A stretch of DNA of 64,000 nt from Thermosulfuriphilus ammonigenes (GTDB lineage: Bacteria > Desulfobacterota > Thermodesulfobacteria > Thermodesulfobacteriales > ST65): NCBI RefSeq assembly GCF_011207455.1, contig NZ_CP048877.1:1046576-1110575 (forward strand), written 5' to 3'. Under the pieces are notes generated by a model. That model did no database searches and was not told the DNA's origin. It was given only the letters and a program-made list of their open reading frames with translations. Below are positions 3,948 through 15,722 of the stretch, in pieces; the first letter of the stretch is position 1; every line of letters starts with the position of its first letter. The position numbers and the translations under genes were made by a program.

Positions 3948-6110
3948 TTGTTTGCTGAGATCCTTTTTCCGGCTACAGGCAAAAGCGAAAAGGTCTATCT
4001 AGAAGAGGAAACCTTGCCGGGGGTAAGGGTTCTTTCCCCCGGCAAGACCAGGCCTCGAATCGGTTTAGTTTTAAGGGAACTTCCTCCTGAATCTGATCTT
4101 TTTCCCCGAAAGACGGGGGTTTCTGTTCTTGACAAGGTGCCGGTTATCTCCCCTGACCTTCTTTCTTTTCTTCAGTGGGTCTCTTGGTATTATCAAAGCT
4201 CCCTGGCCCAGGTGATCCGGACCGCCCTTCCCCGGGAGCTTCTCCATCCTCCTCGGCCGAGGGTTTGTCTCAGTGCTGAGGGACGAGAGATCCTCCCAGT
4301 CAGTATCCCCCTGGTAGCCAGACTACGCCGGGCGGGCCGCCGTGGTCTGACCCTGGAAACAATCCAACGAAGCTATGGCCCGGGAGCCTTAAAGATGGTG
4401 CGGGAATGGCTTAAAAAGGGCCTGTTGAAAGAGGCCTGCCCCCTTAGTCAAAAAGGACGCCCCTTAAGTATCATCTCCCCGGAGATCCTGGATCAGACCC
4501 GGACCATCACTCCCACCACCGCTCAAAAAGCCGCCGCGGCCGTCATATCTCAATCTCTGAGTGGAGACTTCCACCCCTTTCTCCTTCATGGGGTTACCGG
4601 AAGCGGTAAGACATGGGTTTACATCAAAGCTGTCAGCGAGGTCTTAAAGCGGGGCAAAAGTGCCCTAATCCTGGTACCGGAGATAGCCCTCATTGGGGCC
4701 CTGGAGGGGGCCTTTGTGGCCGAATTTGGTCAGGAGGTGGCCCTGTTCCACAGTTTTCTCTCGGAAAGACAGCGGACGGAGACCTGGCTTAAGGCCTGTC
4801 GAGGAAAATGTCGTATCGTTATTGGAGCCCGATCGGCGATCTTTGTCCCCCTTAAGGACCTCGGACTAATTGTAGTCGATGAGGAGCATGACCCTTCGTA
4901 TAAACAAGAGGAGGGGCTTCGCTACCAAGCCCGAGATCTGGCCCTGGCCCGGGGCCAGATGGCGGGAGCCACGGTTATCCTGGGCTCGGCCACCCCGTCT
5001 ATTAAGAGTTATTATCTGGCCCGAAAGGGACGGTTGAGGCTTATCAGCCTACGGCAACGGGCCAGCGGACAGAGGCTGCCCCAGACCCGAATTGTCGATC
5101 TTACCCAGGTCGAAAGACCGGGCTACCTTCTCTCCAGACCCCTCCTTGAGGCCCTTAAAGAACGTCTCCGAGGGGGGGAACAGGCCATTGTTTTTGTCAA
5201 CCGGCGAGGATTTGCTACTCTGGTAGTTTGCCATCGTTGTGGCTATCAATTTCGCTGTCTCAATTGCTCCGTAGCCCTCACCTACCACAAGGAGGAAGGG
5301 GAACTTAGATGTCATTATTGCGGTCTGACCTTAAAGGCCCTGCCCCAGTGCCCGGCCTGCGGTCAGGGAAGGCTGGAGATCCTAGGTCTGGGAACCCAAC
5401 GGGTAGCCGAGGAGTTGGCCCGACTTCTGCCCGAGGCCCGGATAGGACGCCTGGACAGAGACGTGGCCAGGAGCCCTGGCCGCCTGAAGAAGGTCCTCGA
5501 TGATTTTCAGCAGGGAGAGCTGAACATTCTCGTCGGAACCCAGATGCTTAGCAAGGGGCACCACTTCCCCAGGGTGACCTTGGTAGGGGTCATCCTTGCT
5601 GATCTCTCCCTCAACTTTCCAGACTTCAGGGCCCCGGAGAGGACTTTCCAGCTTCTGGTTCAGGTGGCCGGCCGTTCTGGTCGGGAAAGATCCGGAGAGG
5701 TCATCGTTCAGACTTTCTCCCCGGGCCACTACAGCCTCCGACACGCCTTAAGACACGACTACGAGGGCTTTTACCAAACCGAGATTGGCCTGCGACAGGA
5801 ACTAAATTGGCCCCCCTTCAGTCGGCTGGCCAGCCTCCTCTGGGAGACTCCAGCCAAGGAGACGGGAGAGACCCTGGCCCGGGCCCTGGAAAGGCTTCCG
5901 GAGCTAGTCTCCCCGGCGCTTGAAGTCCTGGGCCCCGCTGAGGCCAGCCATCACCGCCTGAAGGGACGATGGCGCTGGCAGATAGTCTTTAAGGCCCCCA
6001 ACATCACCACTCTCCATCAGGGTCTAAAACAGGCCCAGGATCTTATTCGGGAAGCTTCTCCCCCGGGCCCCTTTCGGATAGTGGTGGATATTGACCCCGA
6101 GGAGACCTAA
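3948..6110 (+). CDS. priA: Primosomal protein N' (replication restart helicase PriA)
   Basis: 720-residue superfamily 2 helicase that reloads the replisome at stalled forks. Visible are Walker A (GVTGSGKTWVY), the DEEH box (VVDEEHDPS), GSATPS (motif III), the eight-Cys zinc module starting at CHRCGYQFRCLNC and ending CPACG, and the C-terminal helicase motifs GTQMLSKGHHFP and QVAGRSGR. The start is a TTG at 3948, only 3 bp after the galU stop; the N-terminal 3'-fork-binding domain is present but short on recognisable motifs. It is convergent with the methyltransferase gene and overlaps its end by 4 bp. Confidence 0.95.
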   Translation: MFAEILFPATGKSEKVYLEEETLPGVRVLSPGKTRPRIGLVLRELPPESDLFPRKTGVSVLDKVPVISPDLLSFLQWVSWYYQSSLAQVIRTALPRELLHPPRPRVCLSAEGREILPVSIPLVARLRRAGRRGLTLETIQRSYGPGALKMVREWLKKGLLKEACPLSQKGRPLSIISPEILDQTRTITPTTAQKAAAAVISQSLSGDFHPFLLHGVTGSGKTWVYIKAVSEVLKRGKSALILVPEIALIGALEGAFVAEFGQEVALFHSFLSERQRTETWLKACRGKCRIVIGARSAIFVPLKDLGLIVVDEEHDPSYKQEEGLRYQARDLALARGQMAGATVILGSATPSIKSYYLARKGRLRLISLRQRASGQRLPQTRIVDLTQVERPGYLLSRPLLEALKERLRGGEQAIVFVNRRGFATLVVCHRCGYQFRCLNCSVALTYHKEEGELRCHYCGLTLKALPQCPACGQGRLEILGLGTQRVAEELARLLPEARIGRLDRDVARSPGRLKKVLDDFQQGELNILVGTQMLSKGHHFPRVTLVGVILADLSLNFPDFRAPERTFQLLVQVAGRSGRERSGEVIVQTFSPGHYSLRHALRHDYEGFYQTEIGLRQELNWPPFSRLASLLWETPAKETGETLARALERLPELVSPALEVLGPAEASHHRLKGRWRWQIVFKAPNITTLHQGLKQAQDLIREASPPGPFRIVVDIDPEET

Positions 6111-6808
6111 GCCCCATCTTTGGGAGTCAGGCGGGTAAGGAGTATCTCAAAGCTTTCATCCTCGGATTTCAGACGCCGACGGCTCATGGCCAGATCATAT
6201 TCGGCCTCGGCCTTAGCCAGAAATGGCCCAAGGGTACGCAGCCTCTCCGAGGAGTGAGCCAGATAAATGGTCCCCCCAGGGCGGCGAAGGAAGCGCCGGA
6301 AAAGGGCCAGGAGGTCCTCATAGATTCGAGATGAATAGACCACCTCGGCCCCAATGATCATATCGAAGATTCCCACATCTTGGGGAGAGGCCCAGTCCAT
6401 TTGGAGGACATCTACCTCCAGATTGTTTACCGCTGCCGTGATCTTGACAAAGTCAAGGGGCTCTTCCTCGCCATCGGTAATGGTCACCTGATGGCCAACA
6501 GCAGCGGCAAAAAGACCGGCCACTCCTAGGCCGGCCCCGATTTCTAGAATCTTCCGAGGAGGATTGGCCTCAACAGAGGCCATAAAATCGGCCAAGACCA
6601 CCGCCCCCTCCCAGATCTTGACCCAGAAGGGGAAATTAGCCACTTCGGTAAGGGCATCTCTCTCCTCCAAAAGGGGTTCGAGGTTGCCAAGACGGAGAAA
6701 GTTGATTTCCTTTCCCCGAATGGCTATCGGCTCAAACTCCAGCTCATATCTTTTGGCCAAGCGCTCGTAGATCGGTTTGACGCTTTCGGGAATGGTAATC
6801 TCGGTCAT
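6107..6808 (-). CDS. Class I SAM-dependent methyltransferase
   Basis: 233 residues with the SAM-binding motif I ILEIGAGLGVAGLFAA, an acidic motif II (TITDGEEE) and a FDMIIGAEVVYSS motif of the METTL21 / protein-lysine methyltransferase-like group. The WVKIWEGAVVLADF segment before motif I is also typical of that group, so a protein substrate is likely, but the target cannot be read from sequence. Its ATG overlaps the stop of the upstream UppP-HtrA gene by 4 bp, so the two are an operon; whether they share a function is unknown. Confidence 0.8.
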   Translation of the reverse strand: MTEITIPESVKPIYERLAKRYELEFEPIAIRGKEINFLRLGNLEPLLEERDALTEVANFPFWVKIWEGAVVLADFMASVEANPPRKILEIGAGLGVAGLFAAAVGHQVTITDGEEEPLDFVKITAAVNNLEVDVLQMDWASPQDVGIFDMIIGAEVVYSSRIYEDLLALFRRFLRRPGGTIYLAHSSERLRTLGPFLAKAEAEYDLAMSRRRLKSEDESFEILLTRLTPKDGA

Positions 6809-8568
6809 CTTTTCCTCCGCTGATATCGTGGTTTGCTGATCAGCCTCACCCGAACCTGCTTCTTCTTTTTCCCCCGATAAAAGGTTATCTTAATAACCTC
6901 GCCAGGCCTCTTGCGCGAGATAATCTTCTCCAGATCGGCGGCCGAGGTCACCGGCTGATCATCGATAGCGTAAATGATATCTCCTCCTACAGAGACCAAA
7001 GTATTGCCAAAAAGGACCTCTTCTCGCCCCCCCCTAAGACCAACCCGGGCCGCGGGAGACCCCGGCAGGACTTTAAAGACCAGAGCCCCTCTGTCCAAAG
7101 GAAGGCCCTGGGCCCGAGCAAAAGCCGGGATGAGATCCTGGGCCAGCACCCCTAACCAGGCCCGCTCGATATATCCCTTCTCTACCAGCTGTGGCAAAAG
7201 GGCCTTTATCTGGGCCACCTCCACAGCCAAACCTATACCGGCCCGCCGGGCCTCAGGGAACAGACAGGTGGCCATAGCTACCAGAGCCCCACGGCGATCA
7301 ACCACCGCTCCCCCACAGAACCCAGGAGGCACCGGGGCAGAAAGCTCAACCACCCCGCGGAGAGAAGCCAATTCAGTGACAATCTCTCGACGGAAATCAC
7401 GCACCTGAGCCCCTCCCACCGCCAATCCTTGCCCCCAAGGATTGCCCCAGTAGAAGACCCACTCGCCCCGCCGCGGCCGCCTTTTGGCCTTAATGGCCGG
7501 AGAAAGACGGCTGGCCGGGGCATTGATGGCCAGCACAGCCAGATCCGTCTCCGGATCATAACCTACCATCCGGGCCGGCCACTTGGAACCATCAGGTAGA
7601 GTAACCTCCAAAAAACGGCTCTCCCGTACCAGATAATAGCTGGTAATAATGTGTCCTTTGCGATCCCAGATGATACCTGATCCCTCACTCAGAGGGGGAA
7701 CCGGGGCCAGAAGGGCCTCAGGCCTGAGAGGTGAGGTACTCAGATGGACAACATACTCCCCGGCCTCTGCCCCCCGGGCCTTGGTGGGAGAGAGAACCAG
7801 GAGAAAGATCACCAGGGTAGCCAGAGCCAGACGATAAAAGGCAAAGGGATAAAAGGTATGTTTTACCAGAAAGCGAAGCAGCCAGGCGATGACCAGGAGG
7901 CCGGAGAAAAAGGCGGAAAGAAGGCCTATTAAAAGATTGAATGCGTCAAGGGCCACACCCCCTCCTTGAAGGAGGTCAAGGGTCTTGTAAAGACCAGCTC
8001 CGGCGATAATGGGGGCCGAAAGCAAAAAGGAGAACTTAGCGGCCGCCGGTCGAGATAAGCCCAGAAAAAGGGCCGCGGCCATGGTAATTCCGCTACGAGA
8101 GACCCCCGGAACTATGGCCAGGGACTGGGCTAGACCAATGATCAGGGCCTCCCTGAGACCAATTTCCTCCAAGGATCGTCCCCGCCTTCCCAAACGTTCG
8201 GCCAGAATAAGCACCAGGGCCACCGAGGAAAGGGTAAAGGCAATCAGCGAAGGCCCCCGCAGGTGGTTTTCTACGATATCACCGGCCAGGGCCCCGGCCA
8301 AAGCCCCGGGAACCGTAGCTAAAAGGATAAGGAATAAGAGACGCCTTTTGTCCCTTTGCCGAGGATCAAGCATCCCCAGCCAGTCTTTCCAAAAATAGAT
8401 GAGAATGGCCGCCAGGGTGCCCAGATGAAGAAAGACGTCAAAGGTCAGCCCTCCACCTTTAATGCGAAAGAAATACTGGGCCAGAGCGAGATGCCCAGAG
8501 CTTGAAATTGGAAGAAATTCGGTTATCCCTTGGATTATTCCTAAAAAGATGGCCTCAAGGTGAGTCAT
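6805..8568 (-). CDS. uppP: Undecaprenyl-diphosphatase (UppP/BacA) fused to a degenerate HtrA-like protease plus PDZ
   Basis: 587 residues in a single frame. Residues 1-265 are a complete UppP: the Q13xxxE17 motif, FLPISSSGH (18-26) and PGVSRSG (154-160), with many membrane segments, recycling undecaprenyl diphosphate at the outer face of the membrane for peptidoglycan synthesis. A last hydrophobic helix ends in SPTKARGAEA, followed by a trypsin-like domain (about 295-455) and a PDZ domain (about 465-575) as in HtrA/DegP. The catalytic triad is altered: the TNxHVV His is Tyr312, the Asp342 (TDLAVL) is kept, and the GNSGG Ser is Cys418 (GFCGG). So the second half is probably a binding or regulatory pseudo-protease. 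UppP is normally about 270 residues; the fusion is unusual. Confidence 0.9.
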   Translation of the reverse strand: MTHLEAIFLGIIQGITEFLPISSSGHLALAQYFFRIKGGGLTFDVFLHLGTLAAILIYFWKDWLGMLDPRQRDKRRLLFLILLATVPGALAGALAGDIVENHLRGPSLIAFTLSSVALVLILAERLGRRGRSLEEIGLREALIIGLAQSLAIVPGVSRSGITMAAALFLGLSRPAAAKFSFLLSAPIIAGAGLYKTLDLLQGGGVALDAFNLLIGLLSAFFSGLLVIAWLLRFLVKHTFYPFAFYRLALATLVIFLLVLSPTKARGAEAGEYVVHLSTSPLRPEALLAPVPPLSEGSGIIWDRKGHIITSYYLVRESRFLEVTLPDGSKWPARMVGYDPETDLAVLAINAPASRLSPAIKAKRRPRRGEWVFYWGNPWGQGLAVGGAQVRDFRREIVTELASLRGVVELSAPVPPGFCGGAVVDRRGALVAMATCLFPEARRAGIGLAVEVAQIKALLPQLVEKGYIERAWLGVLAQDLIPAFARAQGLPLDRGALVFKVLPGSPAARVGLRGGREEVLFGNTLVSVGGDIIYAIDDQPVTSAADLEKIISRKRPGEVIKITFYRGKKKKQVRVRLISKPRYQRRKR

Positions 8569-10204: not shown

Positions 10205-10879
10205 TCAGTCCTCAGGTTGATCCGCCGGCATAAATTTACACCCAGAGACCGCTCCAGAGATAATGGCCTCCGGAGCCTTAAAGTCATTCCATACGGCAAT
10301 ATAGAGATGAACAACAACAAAGAAGATAAAGGCCCAATGGAGAAGATAGTGGATAAACCGGGCCTGCTGGGGAGAACCGAAGATGACCACCCCCATGGCA
10401 TTTATCCAGCCTGTTTCCGGATAAAGAAGATAAAGACCCGAGAGGGTCATAACCACGGCGGCGACAAAGAGAGCAAAATAAATGGTTCCCGCTAAGACGG
10501 TATGGCCCATGCGCCATTCATGCTCATCGGTAAGGTAAAGATAGAAACGAAGTGACTGCCAGAAAGAGTGGATATTACGTTGATTGATAGGCAAAAAGTC
10601 CGTAAAGCGCTCATAGCGGTTACCAAAAAGGAGCAGATAGAAGCGGATAATCAACGCCGCCATAAAGAAATAGGCCGCCGTGAAGTGGTAGTAACGAAGG
10701 GTGGCCATAAGGTATTGAGGCTTAAATTCAGCCCATTTGGTAGTTACCGGAGGGTAGTGAATGTAAAGCCCGGTAAGGATAAGGACCAGAGTGGAGATAG
10801 CAAAGGCCCAGTGGAAGATTCTCAGGGCTCCACTCCAGACAAAAACCCGACGATAAAGAACCTGTTTTCTGGTGGCCAT
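10205..10879 (-). CDS. hyaC: [NiFe] hydrogenase cytochrome b subunit
   Basis: 224-residue di-haem membrane cytochrome b that passes electrons from the periplasmic hydrogenase to the quinone pool. Four hydrophobic helices are visible with the family's starting motif VWSGALRIFHWAFAIS and later HYLLHWAFIFFVVVHLY, each containing haem-ligand His. Last gene of the small-large-cytochrome operon, starting 9 bp after the large-subunit stop. The length and motifs match HyaC/HupC. Confidence 0.92.
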   Translation of the reverse strand: MATRKQVLYRRVFVWSGALRIFHWAFAISTLVLILTGLYIHYPPVTTKWAEFKPQYLMATLRYYHFTAAYFFMAALIIRFYLLLFGNRYERFTDFLPINQRNIHSFWQSLRFYLYLTDEHEWRMGHTVLAGTIYFALFVAAVVMTLSGLYLLYPETGWINAMGVVIFGSPQQARFIHYLLHWAFIFFVVVHLYIAVWNDFKAPEAIISGAVSGCKFMPADQPED

Positions 10880-10888
10880 GTTGACCTC

Positions 10889-12598
10889 CTAGAGAACTTT
10901 TACCCGGACGACCTCCTCCCGTTGGGGGTTGAGGACATGAACTGCGCAGGCGATACAAGGATCAAAGGAGTGAATAGTCCTTAAGACCTCAAGGGGCTTT
11001 TGAGGTTCGGCTACCGGATTGCCGATAAGGGCCGCTTCATAAGGCCCCCTCTTTCCCGCCTGGCATCGAGGGCTAACGTTCCAGGTAGAAGGCACTACGC
11101 ATTGGTAATTTTCAATCACCCCGTCTTTTATTACCACCCAATGGGAGAGAGTCCCCCGGGGGGCTTCATGGAAACCAAAACCTCGAATTTCTCCGTGGGG
11201 AAAGGTAGGCGGAGTGCGGTAGGGGAAGATCTCTGTGTCCCCCCGACCGATATTCTCAATGAGAAGATCCAGGTGTTTGAGCCCCAGCTCGGCCAACATA
11301 GCCGCCCGAATAGCCCGAGCCAGATGGCGCCCCGGGGTAGACTGGAGGGCCGTAACCGGAACAGGATGCCCCACCAGGGAAGAAAGCCGCCCAAGGGCGT
11401 AATCTACCCACTTTTTGGTCAACTCATGACCTTGGGCATAACCAGCCAGAACTTGAGCTAGAGGACCAACCTGCATGGGCTCCCCTTTGAAGCGAGGGGC
11501 CTTGGCCCAGGAATATTTGCCCTCCTCTTTAAAGGCCGTGTAGTGGGGTTTGGTTTCTTCTTTCCAGGGATGACGCGTCCAGTCTCCTTCGTACCAAGAA
11601 TGGACGATACTCTCGGCTACGTTGTCTCGAAAGTAAGGATCGTTGAAGCTGGTTATGGGTGTAAAGTTCTTGAAGTCTCCTCCAAATATGGTCCCACCAG
11701 GCAAGTCAAAAACCTCTCCCTTGGTGTCAAGGGGCATATCAGGAACGGCCAGATAGTTGGTTACCCCGGCGCCATAGGCCAGCCAGTCTTTGTAGAGGGC
11801 GGCCACAGCAATGACATCTGGTAGGTAGACCTGATGGACGAAATCCCGAACCTCACCAAGGAGCTGCTTGGCCCAATAAAGGCGCTCCATGTTCAGGGTG
11901 GCCAGGTTGTTGGTGTTGATAGCCAAGGCCACTCCACCGACAATGACCGTTTGGATATGGGGAGTTTTACCTCCAAAGATGGCCACCACCTGATTGGCCT
12001 TGAACTGGTACTCCAGGGCCTCCAGATAATGGGAGACGGCCATAAGATTGGCTTCCGGCGGAAGCTTCATGGCCGGGTGTCCCCAATAGCCATTGGCAAA
12101 AGGCCCCAGCTGGCCGCTCTGGACAAAGGCTGACAACTTTTCCTTTACGGCCTTGAAACGACTGGCTCCATTGCCCGGCCAAGGAGAAAGACTTTGAGCC
12201 AAAGAGGCCGTCTTGTGGGGATCGGCCTTTAAGGCGGAGACCACATCTACCCAATCAAGGGCCGAAAGGTGATAAAAGTGAACAATATGGTCGTGAAGAC
12301 CGTGGGCAGCCAGGATAATATTTCGGATATACTGGGCATTGAGAGGGATCTCCATCCCTAAGGCATTCTCCACGGCCCGCACCGAGGTGATGGCGTGCAC
12401 CGTGGTACAGACCCCGCAGATCCGCTGGCAGAAGGCCCAGGCATCCCGCGGATCACGCCCTTTGAGGATTATTTCTATCCCCCGCCACATCTGGGCTGAG
12501 GCCCAGGCATTGGTTACCCGACCAGAATCCACCTCCACGTCTATGCGCAAATGCCCTTCTATGCGGGTAATAGGGTCAACGGTAATCTTGGTGGCCAT
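10889..12598 (-). CDS. hyaB: [NiFe] uptake hydrogenase large subunit
   Basis: 569 residues, catalytic subunit that splits H2. The N-terminal Ni-ligand motif RICGVCTTVHAITS (L1) and the C-terminal DPCIACAVH (L2) are both present. The protein continues 15 residues past the His, the extension removed by the maturation protease encoded at 13972. The first Cys of L2 is encoded TGT, so this is not a selenocysteine (NiFeSe) enzyme. Its start lies 3 bp after the small-subunit stop, within a single operon. Confidence 0.97.
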   Translation of the reverse strand: MATKITVDPITRIEGHLRIDVEVDSGRVTNAWASAQMWRGIEIILKGRDPRDAWAFCQRICGVCTTVHAITSVRAVENALGMEIPLNAQYIRNIILAAHGLHDHIVHFYHLSALDWVDVVSALKADPHKTASLAQSLSPWPGNGASRFKAVKEKLSAFVQSGQLGPFANGYWGHPAMKLPPEANLMAVSHYLEALEYQFKANQVVAIFGGKTPHIQTVIVGGVALAINTNNLATLNMERLYWAKQLLGEVRDFVHQVYLPDVIAVAALYKDWLAYGAGVTNYLAVPDMPLDTKGEVFDLPGGTIFGGDFKNFTPITSFNDPYFRDNVAESIVHSWYEGDWTRHPWKEETKPHYTAFKEEGKYSWAKAPRFKGEPMQVGPLAQVLAGYAQGHELTKKWVDYALGRLSSLVGHPVPVTALQSTPGRHLARAIRAAMLAELGLKHLDLLIENIGRGDTEIFPYRTPPTFPHGEIRGFGFHEAPRGTLSHWVVIKDGVIENYQCVVPSTWNVSPRCQAGKRGPYEAALIGNPVAEPQKPLEVLRTIHSFDPCIACAVHVLNPQREEVVRVKVL

Positions 12599-12601
12599 AG
12601 G

Positions 12602-13687
12602 CTATTCCTCCTCTTTTTCCTGACCGGATTTGACCATCTTTTTGATGACCCCAACCGCGGCGTGGGTGGCCACCACGGCCAAGGCCCCTCCCACCGCCAC
12701 CTTGCCGATCTTCTCGGCCTCCTTTCGAATACCGCCACCGGCCGGGATATAAACCTCTGGCAGATGTTCATAGAAGGGGGTCATGGTGTCCCAGAATCCG
12801 GGCTCGGTACACCCAATACAGCCGTGACCGGACCCTACAGGCCAAGCCCCTACGTCGCAAAAACGAATGACCGGACAGTTGGAATAAGTAACTGGCCCCT
12901 TACAGCCTACTTTGTAGAGGCAGTAGCCCTTCTGGTGTCCTGGATCTCCAAAGGCCTCCACAAAACGCCCTTCATCAAAATGGGGGCGACGAGGACAATG
13001 GTCGTGTATCTTCCGTCCATAAGCAAACTTAGGACGGCCGAGCTCGTCTGTCTCTGGTGGACGTCCAAAAGTCAGGGTATGGAGGATAGTCCCCAGAATG
13101 TTGTAAGGATTAGGCGGGCAACCAGGGATGTTAATCACCGGTTTGACCTTGATGATGTCCCGCACTCCCACGGCCCCCGTGGGGTTAGGATGGGCCGCCT
13201 GGATACCACCAAAGGAGGCGCAGGCTCCTATGGCGATCACCATCTGGGCCTTTGGGGCTACGTGGTTGAGGATCTCAAGGGCGGTACGGCCGCCAATCTT
13301 GCAATAGATACCCCCGTCCTTTTTGGAGATAGCCCCTTCCACTACACAGATAAAGCGCCCCTCGTTTTTTTTGAGCTGTTCCTCAAGAACCGTCTCCGCC
13401 TGATGTCCGGCAGCAGCCATTAAGGTCTCGTGGTAATCAAGGGAAATAAGGTCCAAAATGAGCCGGGCCACGTCAGGATGAGAGGAGCGCAACAGGCTTT
13501 CGGTACAGCCGGTACACTCCATAAAGTGAAGCCAGATCACCGGCGGTCGCTGGGGAGAAGCCGCAGCCTCGGCCACCTTACCCACCATTTCCGCCGGCAA
13601 ACCCATAGCCGCCGTGGCTATGGTGCAGGCTTTAAGAAAACTGCGTCGACTCATCTTACCCAAACGGTGAGCCAGAAAGCGTTCCAT
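12602..13687 (-). CDS. hyaA: [NiFe] uptake hydrogenase small subunit with Tat signal
   Basis: 361 residues. The SRRSFLK twin-arginine motif at 13-19 exports the folded small-large pair. Fe-S ligands are visible: ECTGCTES (proximal cluster), HDHCPRRPHF and GYCLYKVGCKGP (distal), SNCP, FC and GCIGCTEP (medial). The proximal motif is CTGCT rather than CTGCC, so the extra Cys of oxygen-tolerant group 1 enzymes is absent and ordinary oxygen sensitivity is expected. A C-terminal hydrophobic anchor (about 325-345) holds it to the membrane. First gene of the operon, with AGGAGG-like sequence upstream of the ATG. Confidence 0.97.
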   Translation of the reverse strand: MERFLAHRLGKMSRRSFLKACTIATAAMGLPAEMVGKVAEAAASPQRPPVIWLHFMECTGCTESLLRSSHPDVARLILDLISLDYHETLMAAAGHQAETVLEEQLKKNEGRFICVVEGAISKKDGGIYCKIGGRTALEILNHVAPKAQMVIAIGACASFGGIQAAHPNPTGAVGVRDIIKVKPVINIPGCPPNPYNILGTILHTLTFGRPPETDELGRPKFAYGRKIHDHCPRRPHFDEGRFVEAFGDPGHQKGYCLYKVGCKGPVTYSNCPVIRFCDVGAWPVGSGHGCIGCTEPGFWDTMTPFYEHLPEVYIPAGGGIRKEAEKIGKVAVGGALAVVATHAAVGVIKKMVKSGQEKEEE

Positions 13688-13971
13688 CCCCGCCTCCTTT
13701 GCAAAAGCGTAAAAATTATCAGAAGATATGTATTACCTTGGATCCTAAAAAGAAAATTTGGCAAAAAAAGAGATCGACAAGGGACGAGTTAAAGACCATA
13801 ATTTTTTTTAGCATTTAACAGAAAAGAAGGCAAAAATTTTTTCAAAAAATGAAACCTTTAAGGATGTTAAAGGACCAAAATGACCTCTAAACCCCTCTAA
13901 ATGACAAAAATTGTCACAAAACCCCAAAAGGCTCAATAATGGGACAAAGATTTATCAAGGAGGGCAAAAGT
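13688..13971. promoter_or_regulatory. Divergent hydrogenase control region with a TGACAA/TTGTCA palindrome
   Basis: This 284-bp AT-rich gap separates hyaABC from the maturation genes. It holds A-runs and T-runs and one clean palindrome, TGACAA-N3-TTGTCA at 13902-13916, about 55 bp upstream of the protease gene. No unambiguous -10/-35 pair was found. The palindrome could be an operator for a CRP/FNR-like or other dimeric regulator; this is inference. Confidence 0.4.
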
Positions 13972-14466
13972 ATGGATGTGTGGGGGCCTTTGGCCCTGGT
14001 AGGCCTGGGGAACATCCTTCTCGGAGATGAAGGTTTCGGGGTTCATTTTATTAGGCACCTCAAGCAGGAGTTCTGCTTCCCAGAAGGGGTAGATCTTATA
14101 GATGGTGGTTGTGCCGGCCTGGGGCTCCTTAACCTCATCCGGGGCTATAAGACCGTCATCCTCTTTGATGTCTTGTTAAAGAAAGCCCCGCCGGGGACTA
14201 TCTATGTCCTGGAGATGGACGCCCTCGAAAACCTGCCCTCATCCTCCCTGGCCTCGGCCCACCAGATAGGAGTCAAAGATGCCCTGGCCCTGGCCAGGTT
14301 CTCCAGTGTTGGTCCCGAGAAGTTCTGGGCCTATGCGGTTGTCCCCAAGGATCTTTCACCTGGAGTAGGGCTTTCGGCAGAACTCCGGGAAGCCTTCTTT
14401 CCCCTCCAGGAAAGGCTCTTTACGGATCTTAAAACATTGGGGATCTATCCCGAAAAAGGGGGGTAG
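13972..14466 (+). CDS. hyaD: Hydrogenase maturation protease (HyaD/HupD family)
   Basis: 164 residues. It cleaves the C-terminal extension of the hydrogenase large subunit after Ni insertion. Family motifs: GLGNILLGDEGFGVH with the Ni-binding Glu, a LIDGG segment with the second acidic ligand, and a SAHQIG His. An upstream in-frame ATG exists at 13939, but the ATG at 13972 is preceded at 7 bp by AAGGAGGG and gives the usual N-terminus, so I chose it. Followed after 2 bp by hypC. Confidence 0.93.
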   Translation: MDVWGPLALVGLGNILLGDEGFGVHFIRHLKQEFCFPEGVDLIDGGCAGLGLLNLIRGYKTVILFDVLLKKAPPGTIYVLEMDALENLPSSSLASAHQIGVKDALALARFSSVGPEKFWAYAVVPKDLSPGVGLSAELREAFFPLQERLFTDLKTLGIYPEKGG

Positions 14467-14468
14467 TT

Positions 14469-14693
14469 ATGTGTCTAGGGGTACCCATGAGATTGATTGA
14501 GGTAAATTATCCCCTGGGGGTAGCCGAGGCCCGAGGTGTAAAGCGGACTGTCTATCTCCAGCTTCTTCCGGAAAATGAGATCAAAGAAGGGGACTATGTC
14601 ATCGTTCATGTGGGCTTTGCTATTCAGAGGCTTTCAGCCAGTGAGGCCGAGGAAACCTGGCGCCTTCTGGAAGGCCTGCTGGAGGGTTCTTGA
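14469..14693 (+). CDS. hypC: Hydrogenase assembly chaperone HypC
   Basis: 74 residues. HypC carries the Fe(CN)2CO unit with HypD and delivers it to the large subunit. The essential N-terminal MCLGVPM with Cys2 is intact, followed by the small beta-barrel with GDYVIVHVGFAIQRL. Its TGA overlaps the hypA ATG (TGATG), which implies coupling. Confidence 0.97.
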   Translation: MCLGVPMRLIEVNYPLGVAEARGVKRTVYLQLLPENEIKEGDYVIVHVGFAIQRLSASEAEETWRLLEGLLEGS

Positions 14694-15052
14694 TGCATGA
14701 GGCATCTCTGGTGGCCGCCATGGCCGAAGAAATAAGAAGATTGGCTGTGGCAGAGGGGGCCCAAAAGGTAACCCGAATCCTGGTGCGGATCGGGGAGGCC
14801 GCAGGGGTGGAGCTGGAGGCCTTTGATTTTGCCTTCTTGGCTCTAAAGGCCCAAGATCCCCTCTTCTCCGAAGCCCATCTGGAGATAGAGACCAGACCGG
14901 TGGTTTTGGAATGCTTTTTTTGCGGCCATCGCCAAGAAGGGGAACTCGGCCGGCCCTGTGATCAATGCGGCCAGATAGGGCTCCAGCTTATCTCTGGAGA
15001 TGAGATCTACCTGGCCAGTATAGACTTAATCACGGGAGACAAAAATGTGTGA
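14693..15052 (+). CDS. hypA: Hydrogenase nickel-insertion protein HypA
   Basis: 119 residues. HypA delivers nickel to the hydrogenase large subunit together with HypB. The start is fixed by function: the N-terminal Met-His-Glu binds Ni, so the ATG at 14693 (MHEASL) is correct rather than the TTG one codon earlier. A zinc site of two pairs is visible, CFFCGH and CDQCG. It overlaps hypB by 8 bp. Confidence 0.97.
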   Translation: MHEASLVAAMAEEIRRLAVAEGAQKVTRILVRIGEAAGVELEAFDFAFLALKAQDPLFSEAHLEIETRPVVLECFFCGHRQEGELGRPCDQCGQIGLQLISGDEIYLASIDLITGDKNV

Positions 15053-15722
15053 GGATTGCGGTTGTCAGACCAAACATCTGGAGATCGAAAGGGCCATCCT
15101 CTCTACTAACGAAGCCCTGGCCCAAAAAAATCGTCAGCATTTTCGCCGTCTCGGAGCCAAGGTTATCAACCTCATCAGCGCCCCGGGCTCCGGCAAGACC
15201 TCGCTGCTTGAGGCCACGGTGGAGGCCCTGGCCCAAGAGATACCTCTGGCGATCATCGAGGGAGATCCGGAGACCGAAAAAGACGCCGAAAGACTGCGGC
15301 GCAAAGGAGTCCCGGTGGCCGCAGTAACAACAGGCGGAGCCTGCCACCTGGATGCCCGGATGATCCACCGGGCTTGTCATCAGCTTGAGCCCCATCGCCC
15401 CCGCCTCATTTTTATCGAAAATGTCGGCAACCTGGTCTGTCCCGCCGCCTTTGATCTCGGAGAAGACCTCCGGGTTATCCTGGTCTCCGTACCTGAGGGG
15501 CCGGATAAACCAGAAAAATATCCAGCGGCTTTCCTCAAGGCTCAGGCCTTTTGCATCACCAAGGCCGATCTTTTACCCTACTTTGACTTTGACCCCCAGG
15601 AGGTCATCGACTCCGCCAGGAAAATCAAGCCAGATCTAAAGGCTTTTATCCTTTCAGTAAAAAATGGCCAGGGTCTCTCTGATTGGTTCACCTTTATAAG
15701 AGAATTCGTTATCAGGGGATAG
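15045..15722 (+). CDS. hypB: Hydrogenase nickel-incorporation GTPase HypB
   Basis: 225 residues. GTPase of the SIMIBI class that drives nickel delivery. It carries the N-terminal CEDCGC metal motif, the P-loop SAPGSGKTSLL, the metal/GTPase segment GGACHLDA, and the base-recognition TKAD. There is no long His-rich stretch, so nickel storage is not its role. Last of the hyaD-hypCAB block. Confidence 0.97.
   Translation: MCEDCGCQTKHLEIERAILSTNEALAQKNRQHFRRLGAKVINLISAPGSGKTSLLEATVEALAQEIPLAIIEGDPETEKDAERLRRKGVPVAAVTTGGACHLDARMIHRACHQLEPHRPRLIFIENVGNLVCPAAFDLGEDLRVILVSVPEGPDKPEKYPAAFLKAQAFCITKADLLPYFDFDPQEVIDSARKIKPDLKAFILSVKNGQGLSDWFTFIREFVIRG

Follow-up and report, generated by a model that had tools for sequence, protein, structure and literature searches.

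An undecaprenyl-diphosphatase fused in frame to an HtrA-like pseudoprotease in Thermosulfuriphilus ammonigenes and its relatives

A fusion of UppP with an HtrA-like module

The undecaprenyl-diphosphatase UppP (BacA) of Thermosulfuriphilus ammonigenes is joined, in one polypeptide, to an HtrA-like trypsin-fold and PDZ region whose catalytic triad is degenerate. This fusion is confirmed. Its gene lies in the window analysed here (the whole stretch of DNA, 64,000 nucleotides long) and is one unbroken open reading frame, 587 codons long, in which the Pfam domains BacA, Trypsin_2 and PDZ_2 follow one another in this order, each exceeding its gathering cut-off (Table 1). The T. ammonigenes genome (G000) is one contig of 2,287,345 bases, 100% complete, and the fusion is its sole BacA-family gene. 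It also counts four Trypsin_2 genes and one PAP2 gene; since a PAP2 phosphatase is encoded, the cell may have a C55-PP phosphatase besides the fusion. Because ten other genomes carry it, the fusion is neither a chance reading frame nor an assembly error. An assembly or frameshift artefact is ruled out by these ten relatives together with the complete single-contig genome.

Table 1. Positions of the fusion gene, its parts and its downstream neighbour within the window
Feature	Position	Strand	Description
UppP-pseudoHtrA fusion gene	6805..8568	-	587 aa; ATG 8566-8568, TGA 6805-6807; homologous fusions in relatives
UppP/BacA half	7783..8568	-	residues 1-262; Pfam BacA E 5.8e-78; model match to 5oon
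Junction/linker	7753..7782	-	residues 263-272; AxA-like signal-peptidase motif (AEA, then GEY)
Trypsin-fold pseudoprotease domain	7189..7752	-	residues 273-460; Trypsin_2; DegS/MucD/Deg1 fold, Z ~30-31
Tyr312, replaces catalytic His	7633..7635	-	alignment
Asp342, catalytic Asp position kept	7543..7545	-	alignment
Cys418, replaces catalytic Ser	7315..7317	-	alignment
PDZ domain	6835..7173	-	residues 466-578; conserved W471-L472-G473 loop, G529-D530; PDZ_2
Downstream PF10294-type methyltransferase	6107..6808	-	ATGA overlap with the fusion stop

The first half is a complete UppP, as the original prediction had proposed from its QxxxE, SSSGH and PGxSRSG motifs. These read QGITE (residues 13-17), SSSGH (22-26) and PGVSRSG (154-160) and are intact. 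The Pfam BacA profile (PF02673) covers residues 6-251 with 262.6 bits against a cut-off of 33.4, and the curated cut-off of TIGR00753 (undec_PP_bacA, 217.5 bits) is passed with 225.5 bits. Essential residues of E. coli BacA are Glu21, Ser27 and Arg174 (PMC4641660); their equivalents, as judged from motif position, are all present. The AlphaFold model of residues 1-258 superimposes on E. coli BacA (5oon) with a Z score of 34.2 and an rmsd of 2.3 Å over 255 aligned residues, the final membrane helix being modelled at residues 240-259. Likeness to the E. coli enzyme therefore holds for the whole sequence, the fold and the catalytic motifs; the fusion differs from it by some 325 additional C-terminal residues, which make up a second, periplasmic module. 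With its intact active-site motifs, the UppP half is predicted to be an active C55-PP phosphatase.

The trypsin-fold and PDZ region expected to follow in frame is likewise borne out by the intact reading frame, by the Pfam matches (Trypsin_2 at residues 296-432, E 9.1e-21; PDZ_2 at residues 491-576, E 2.7e-12) and by the predicted folds. In the whole-protein AlphaFold model, residues ~256-582 matched DegS, AlgW, MucD and plant Deg1/Deg8 at Z scores of about 30. Because the whole-protein alignment set some rows of unfused Htr wrongly against the columns of UppP, the Htr half was folded again with an alignment of its own (pLDDT 93.4, pTM 0.88); the second model agreed with the first and superimposed on DegS with a Z score of 31.1 and an rmsd of 2.8 Å over 283 residues. 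Alignment with both canonical HtrA proteins of T. ammonigenes, which carry H/D/S in the three catalytic columns, verified the reading of the triad as Tyr312/Asp342/Cys418; Asp342, Gly419 and Gly420 are retained. Among the defining features of HtrA/Deg (S1C) proteins, the trypsin fold and the PDZ domain are thus present and the His-Asp-Ser triad is absent. The Do/HtrA profile TIGR02037 is matched with E 2.8e-46 and 158 bits, far below its cut-off of 416.

The two halves are separated by a short linker with pLDDT values below 50 at residues 262-267. The whole-protein model has a mean pLDDT of 90.9 and a pTM of 0.69, the relative placement of the domains being uncertain. The C-terminus of E. coli BacA is periplasmic, a fusion of full-length BacA with beta-lactamase being active (PMC4641660), and the paper describing the BacA crystal structure places both termini in the periplasm (PMC5852022). 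Because the BacA C-terminus is periplasmic, the HtrA-like half most likely sits on the face of the membrane where UppP has its active site and where HtrA proteins work. The predicted structures, matching BacA on one side and DegS, Deg1 and MucD on the other, and the periplasmic placement, consistent with the published BacA topology, agree with what had been anticipated.

Fused, adjacent and separate genes in relatives

Relatives were surveyed in the phylum (297 genomes), in the whole order (41 genomes) and in the class of G029 (46 genomes). The fusion is present in 11 genomes including that of T. ammonigenes, so that the search for it in related genomes returned ten further cases; in two of these (G776 and G324) it could be traced no further than the end of a contig. 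They belong to family f31 (G029, G181, G776), to family f97 (G779) and to g5 of family f2 (G289, G320-G323, G324). In 49 other genomes, uppP is directly followed on the same strand by a homologous htr gene, and the two frames mostly overlap or are separated by a short gap. These pairs occur in families f2, f3, f20, f50, f57, f63, f67, f80, f85 and f99. At 76 further loci of the UppP tree having enough downstream sequence, no htr gene adjoins uppP. The original prediction had counted separate genes in relatives as evidence against it. Such genes do exist, but as adjacent and co-oriented pairs they strengthen the functional link instead: since unfused relatives hold the two halves as neighbours, a process shared by UppP and HtrA is strongly implied.

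Coupling is not universal. UppP has no adjoining htr gene in f2 g2, g3 and g204, showing that UppP works without htr there. One genome of this group (G128, f2 g3; L202:3689-5379) retains the gene order corA-uppP-methyltransferase-prmC-murA, with a gap of some 290 bases where htr would stand. Degenerate htr genes lying away from uppP were observed at L181 and L182 (G774 and G775, family f96) and at L185 (G789, f80 g211). Tight physical coupling is therefore not obligatory in these two groups. The UppP of f96 is a distant one, with 35-39% identity to the UppP of the window, so that the pseudoprotease of this family seems to have outlived its neighbour. G020 carries a tandem pair of intact HtrA genes (L033:442-1347 and 1351-2454). 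A hydrophobic tail replaces most of the PDZ domain in the first of them, and the second, with 40% identity to the Htr half of the window, is among its closest stand-alone relatives.

Elsewhere, a search at E 1e-70, run without a positive control, gave no fusion among 299 genomes from the phylum to which G328, a Rhodospirillales MAG, belongs; among 149 genomes from the phylum of the Acidobacteria MAG G327, no full-length fusion was found at E 1e-45. Plasmids gave no match to the fusion.

Repeated fusion and repeated loss of the triad

In the UppP tree as well as in the concatenated UppP+Htr tree, fused copies fall in several places. A grouping of all fused copies in one clade, put to the AU test after the first tree had been seen, was rejected (lnL difference 302, p 5e-46). 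By parsimony, the UppP+Htr tree requires a minimum of four changes between the fused and the separate state, fusion and later fission being indistinguishable within the clade of f1, f2, f3 and f31. The fused state arose more than once. T. ammonigenes branches at the base of the clade of its order, on a long branch and with an unsure exact position.

Of the 60 copies that are fused or adjacent, 59 gave a readable triad, in a few cases from fragments. An intact H-D-S triad was observed in 15 of the 59, all of them separate genes (f20, f85 and most of f99), and the triad is degenerate in the other 44, including all 11 fused copies. The replacements are specific to each lineage. In the order His/Asp/Ser, they read Y/D/C in T. 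ammonigenes and H/D/A in G779; S, V or A/G, R or K/A, N or M in f31; and E or P/G, E or D/E, R or V in f2 g5. Among unfused families, f3 has mostly Y/G/G, much of f80 has S/G/D, f50 has E/G/R and f63 has G/D/E; partial loss is visible in two genomes of f99 (N/D/S and Q/D/A). If lost triads were never regained, the UppP+Htr tree implies that the triad would have been lost independently about six times or more. The HtrA module probably goes back to a periplasmic HtrA that was once active and whose gene lay immediately downstream of uppP.

Conservation differs between the two parts of the module. Mean pairwise identity of the protease domain is 55% among intact copies as compared to 28% among degenerate ones, and that of the PDZ domain 42% as compared to 40%. 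Variability of the His and Ser columns in degenerate copies reaches the 84th and 95th percentiles within the protease domain; in the PDZ domain of these copies, G473, G494, D530 and R565 do not vary and position 471 holds either W or Y. Pairwise dN/dS of degenerate Htr halves ranges from 0.04 to 0.20, with 0.05 for the fused pair L042/L043, which rules out pseudogene decay of the second half. Because the PDZ domain is conserved and dN/dS is low while the triad columns vary, the module is under selection, though not for proteolysis. The second half is thus an HtrA-fold pseudoprotease, as had been claimed, within a fusion that has been maintained in evolution.

Possible role of the module

We propose that the gene encodes one membrane protein, a UppP/BacA whose periplasmic C-terminus would bear a non-proteolytic HtrA module made of a trypsin fold and a PDZ domain. 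The PDZ domain, possibly helped by HtrA-type trimerisation, would bind C-terminal peptides of envelope proteins, and the peptide-bound module would then either bring UppP to the places where polymers are made or alter its activity. On balance we lean towards the view that the module is a non-proteolytic, peptide-binding subunit, regulatory or scaffolding, tethered to UppP. Peptide binding, oligomerisation and an effect on UppP are all inferred. Candidate ligands may be a misfolded outer-membrane protein, a synthase partner or UppP itself. The earlier reading, in which the second half tethers or gates UppP by binding peptides, is partly supported: the maintained fusion, the pseudoprotease with its conserved PDZ domain, the periplasmic placement and a process shared by the two halves bear it out, whereas binding of misfolded envelope proteins by the PDZ domain, a change of UppP activity and envelope stress as the input would be its hypothetical parts. 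A role in scaffolding or localisation would suit the sequence data equally well as stress-gated regulation. A link of UppP with envelope stress would not be unprecedented, because E. coli bacA is transcribed by sigma-E (PMC2215328, PMC2731931). A wider scheme, which we put forward tentatively, is that in one branch of Thermodesulfobacteriota a stress protease of the HtrA type turned into a regulatory subunit devoted to UppP and without proteolysis, having lost catalysis repeatedly and been fused more than once, and that periplasmic peptide signals read by the PDZ domain would directly set the rate or the place of undecaprenyl-phosphate recycling.

Other explanations were weighed against the tethered subunit. 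The protein could be a polyprotein, cleaved by signal peptidase after the last UppP helix to free a soluble periplasmic HtrA-like protein, the fusion serving only to equalise dosage. AxA-like motifs do occur past the last helix in T. ammonigenes (AEA before GEY) and in f2 g5 (ALA before APP, ARA before ASP), the mature module begins near such a motif, and unfused htr genes start with a hydrophobic stretch resembling a signal peptide. However, f31 fusions have no AxA-like motif, and the last UppP helix, of about 20 residues, exceeds the usual signal-peptide core, which is shorter than this; we regard cleavage as unlikely. The module could also be a chaperone, a holdase devoid of proteolysis acting near the membrane on UppP or on nascent envelope proteins. 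Loss of the triad with retention of the PDZ domain and of the fold would fit, as would the chaperone and proteolytic roles both ascribed to HtrA proteins (PMC11535027), but the specific tie to uppP across many families would be left unexplained and the pair is missing in f2 g2 and g3 of the same order. This explanation appears rather improbable.

Right behind the uppP stop, and in frame with it, the htr frame begins in four genomes, G290, G205, G783 and G808, so that fusion needs one small change only; such an arrangement is a plausible stepping stone. It would also allow two proteins with unrelated jobs to be joined by the mere loss of a stop codon. That the fusion is neutral in this sense is very unlikely in view of the adjacency across about ten families, of more than one fusion, of the fact that only pseudoproteases are fused and of strong purifying selection. 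Finally, Cys418 and Asp342 might form an unusual active cysteine peptidase in T. ammonigenes alone, where Asp342, Gly419 and Gly420 are retained; cysteine serves as the nucleophile in trypsin-fold peptidases of some viruses. Yet the catalytic His is a Tyr, and the other fused relatives have A, N, R, V, E or M at the Ser position, showing that the family is not under selection for catalysis. That Cys418 supports proteolysis is unlikely, in line with the original view that a Cys lacking its His makes an improbable protease, and a peptidase peculiar to this one species is barely credible.

Relation to known systems

The nearest precedent is MamO, the magnetosome HtrA pseudoprotease carrying a transporter domain, one of the several cases of such loss that arose independently among magnetotactic bacteria (PMC4794232). 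As in the fusion, an HtrA pseudoprotease is joined to an integral-membrane module and the triad was lost independently in several taxa. The general architecture, a degenerate-triad HtrA scaffold with a membrane domain, is therefore common to both. The two differ in the order of the parts, in the membrane partner (a transporter domain instead of a lipid-carrier-recycling enzyme) and in the conserved PDZ domain kept by the fusion, and the MamO profile NF040961 gives 31.1 bits against a cut-off of 800: the window protein is not a MamO. The membrane-anchored stress sensors DegS and AlgW resemble it in having a trypsin fold and one PDZ domain behind a membrane anchor (Z about 30-31). In contrast to them, the fusion has no triad, Cys418 standing in place of the active serine, and it is anchored by an enzyme's last helix; the DegS profile TIGR02038 is matched with 120.5 bits as compared to a cut-off of 422.95. 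Plant Deg1/Deg8 and cyanobacterial HhoA are also alike, Deg1 being the best PDB profile match (3qo6, E 2.8e-84) and a top fold match, but they are listed as proteases and are not joined to a phosphatase.

We found no description of a UppP-HtrA fusion or operon in the open-access literature. To our knowledge, no protein regulator acting directly on UppP has been established. The module described here is a candidate for such a regulator: it stands beside UppP in about ten families, was fused to it more than once and lost its triad with its peptide-binding part conserved. The pairing of phosphatase and pseudoprotease, adjacent or fused across one branch of sulfur bacteria, suggests a binding or control part for the recycling enzyme, and the natural chimera makes control of lipid-carrier recycling testable in a single protein. 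The copies, which range from active proteases over partly degenerate forms to complete pseudoproteases, provide natural material for studying how an enzyme evolves into a regulator.

Genomic setting

The gene settings of uppP-htr largely concern the cell envelope. The PF10294-type methyltransferase downstream of the fusion is the neighbour within the order, recurring in G204, G289, G323, G319 and G128. In f2, it is followed by prmC, a murA-like gene of the EPSP_synthase family and a holB-like gene, with corA upstream, the murA and holB labels having been given from sequence rather than by a family-specific test. A glycoside hydrolase family 3 (NagZ-like) gene is a common neighbour of the pair in the sister class, and in G779 the next gene downstream encodes a family 9 glycosyltransferase.

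Outside the window, T. ammonigenes encodes a second HtrA of 353 residues with an intact H-D-S triad (L204:479-6873; G000:C1, ~763.5-769.9 kb). It clusters tightly with a family 2 glycosyltransferase, an LPG_synthase_TM protein, the sole PAP2 phosphatase and a PMT-type glycosyltransferase, and the order HtrA-GT2-LPG_TM is also found in family f3. Because PAP2 clusters with this second HtrA, both kinds of candidate C55-PP phosphatase of the species lie near an HtrA gene. Within the window, positions 10205-15719 hold an apparent membrane-bound NiFe hydrogenase cluster, as read from the sequences, with a cytochrome b-like protein and the large and small subunits on the minus strand, and a maturation protease and HypC/HypA/HypB-like reading frames on the plus strand.
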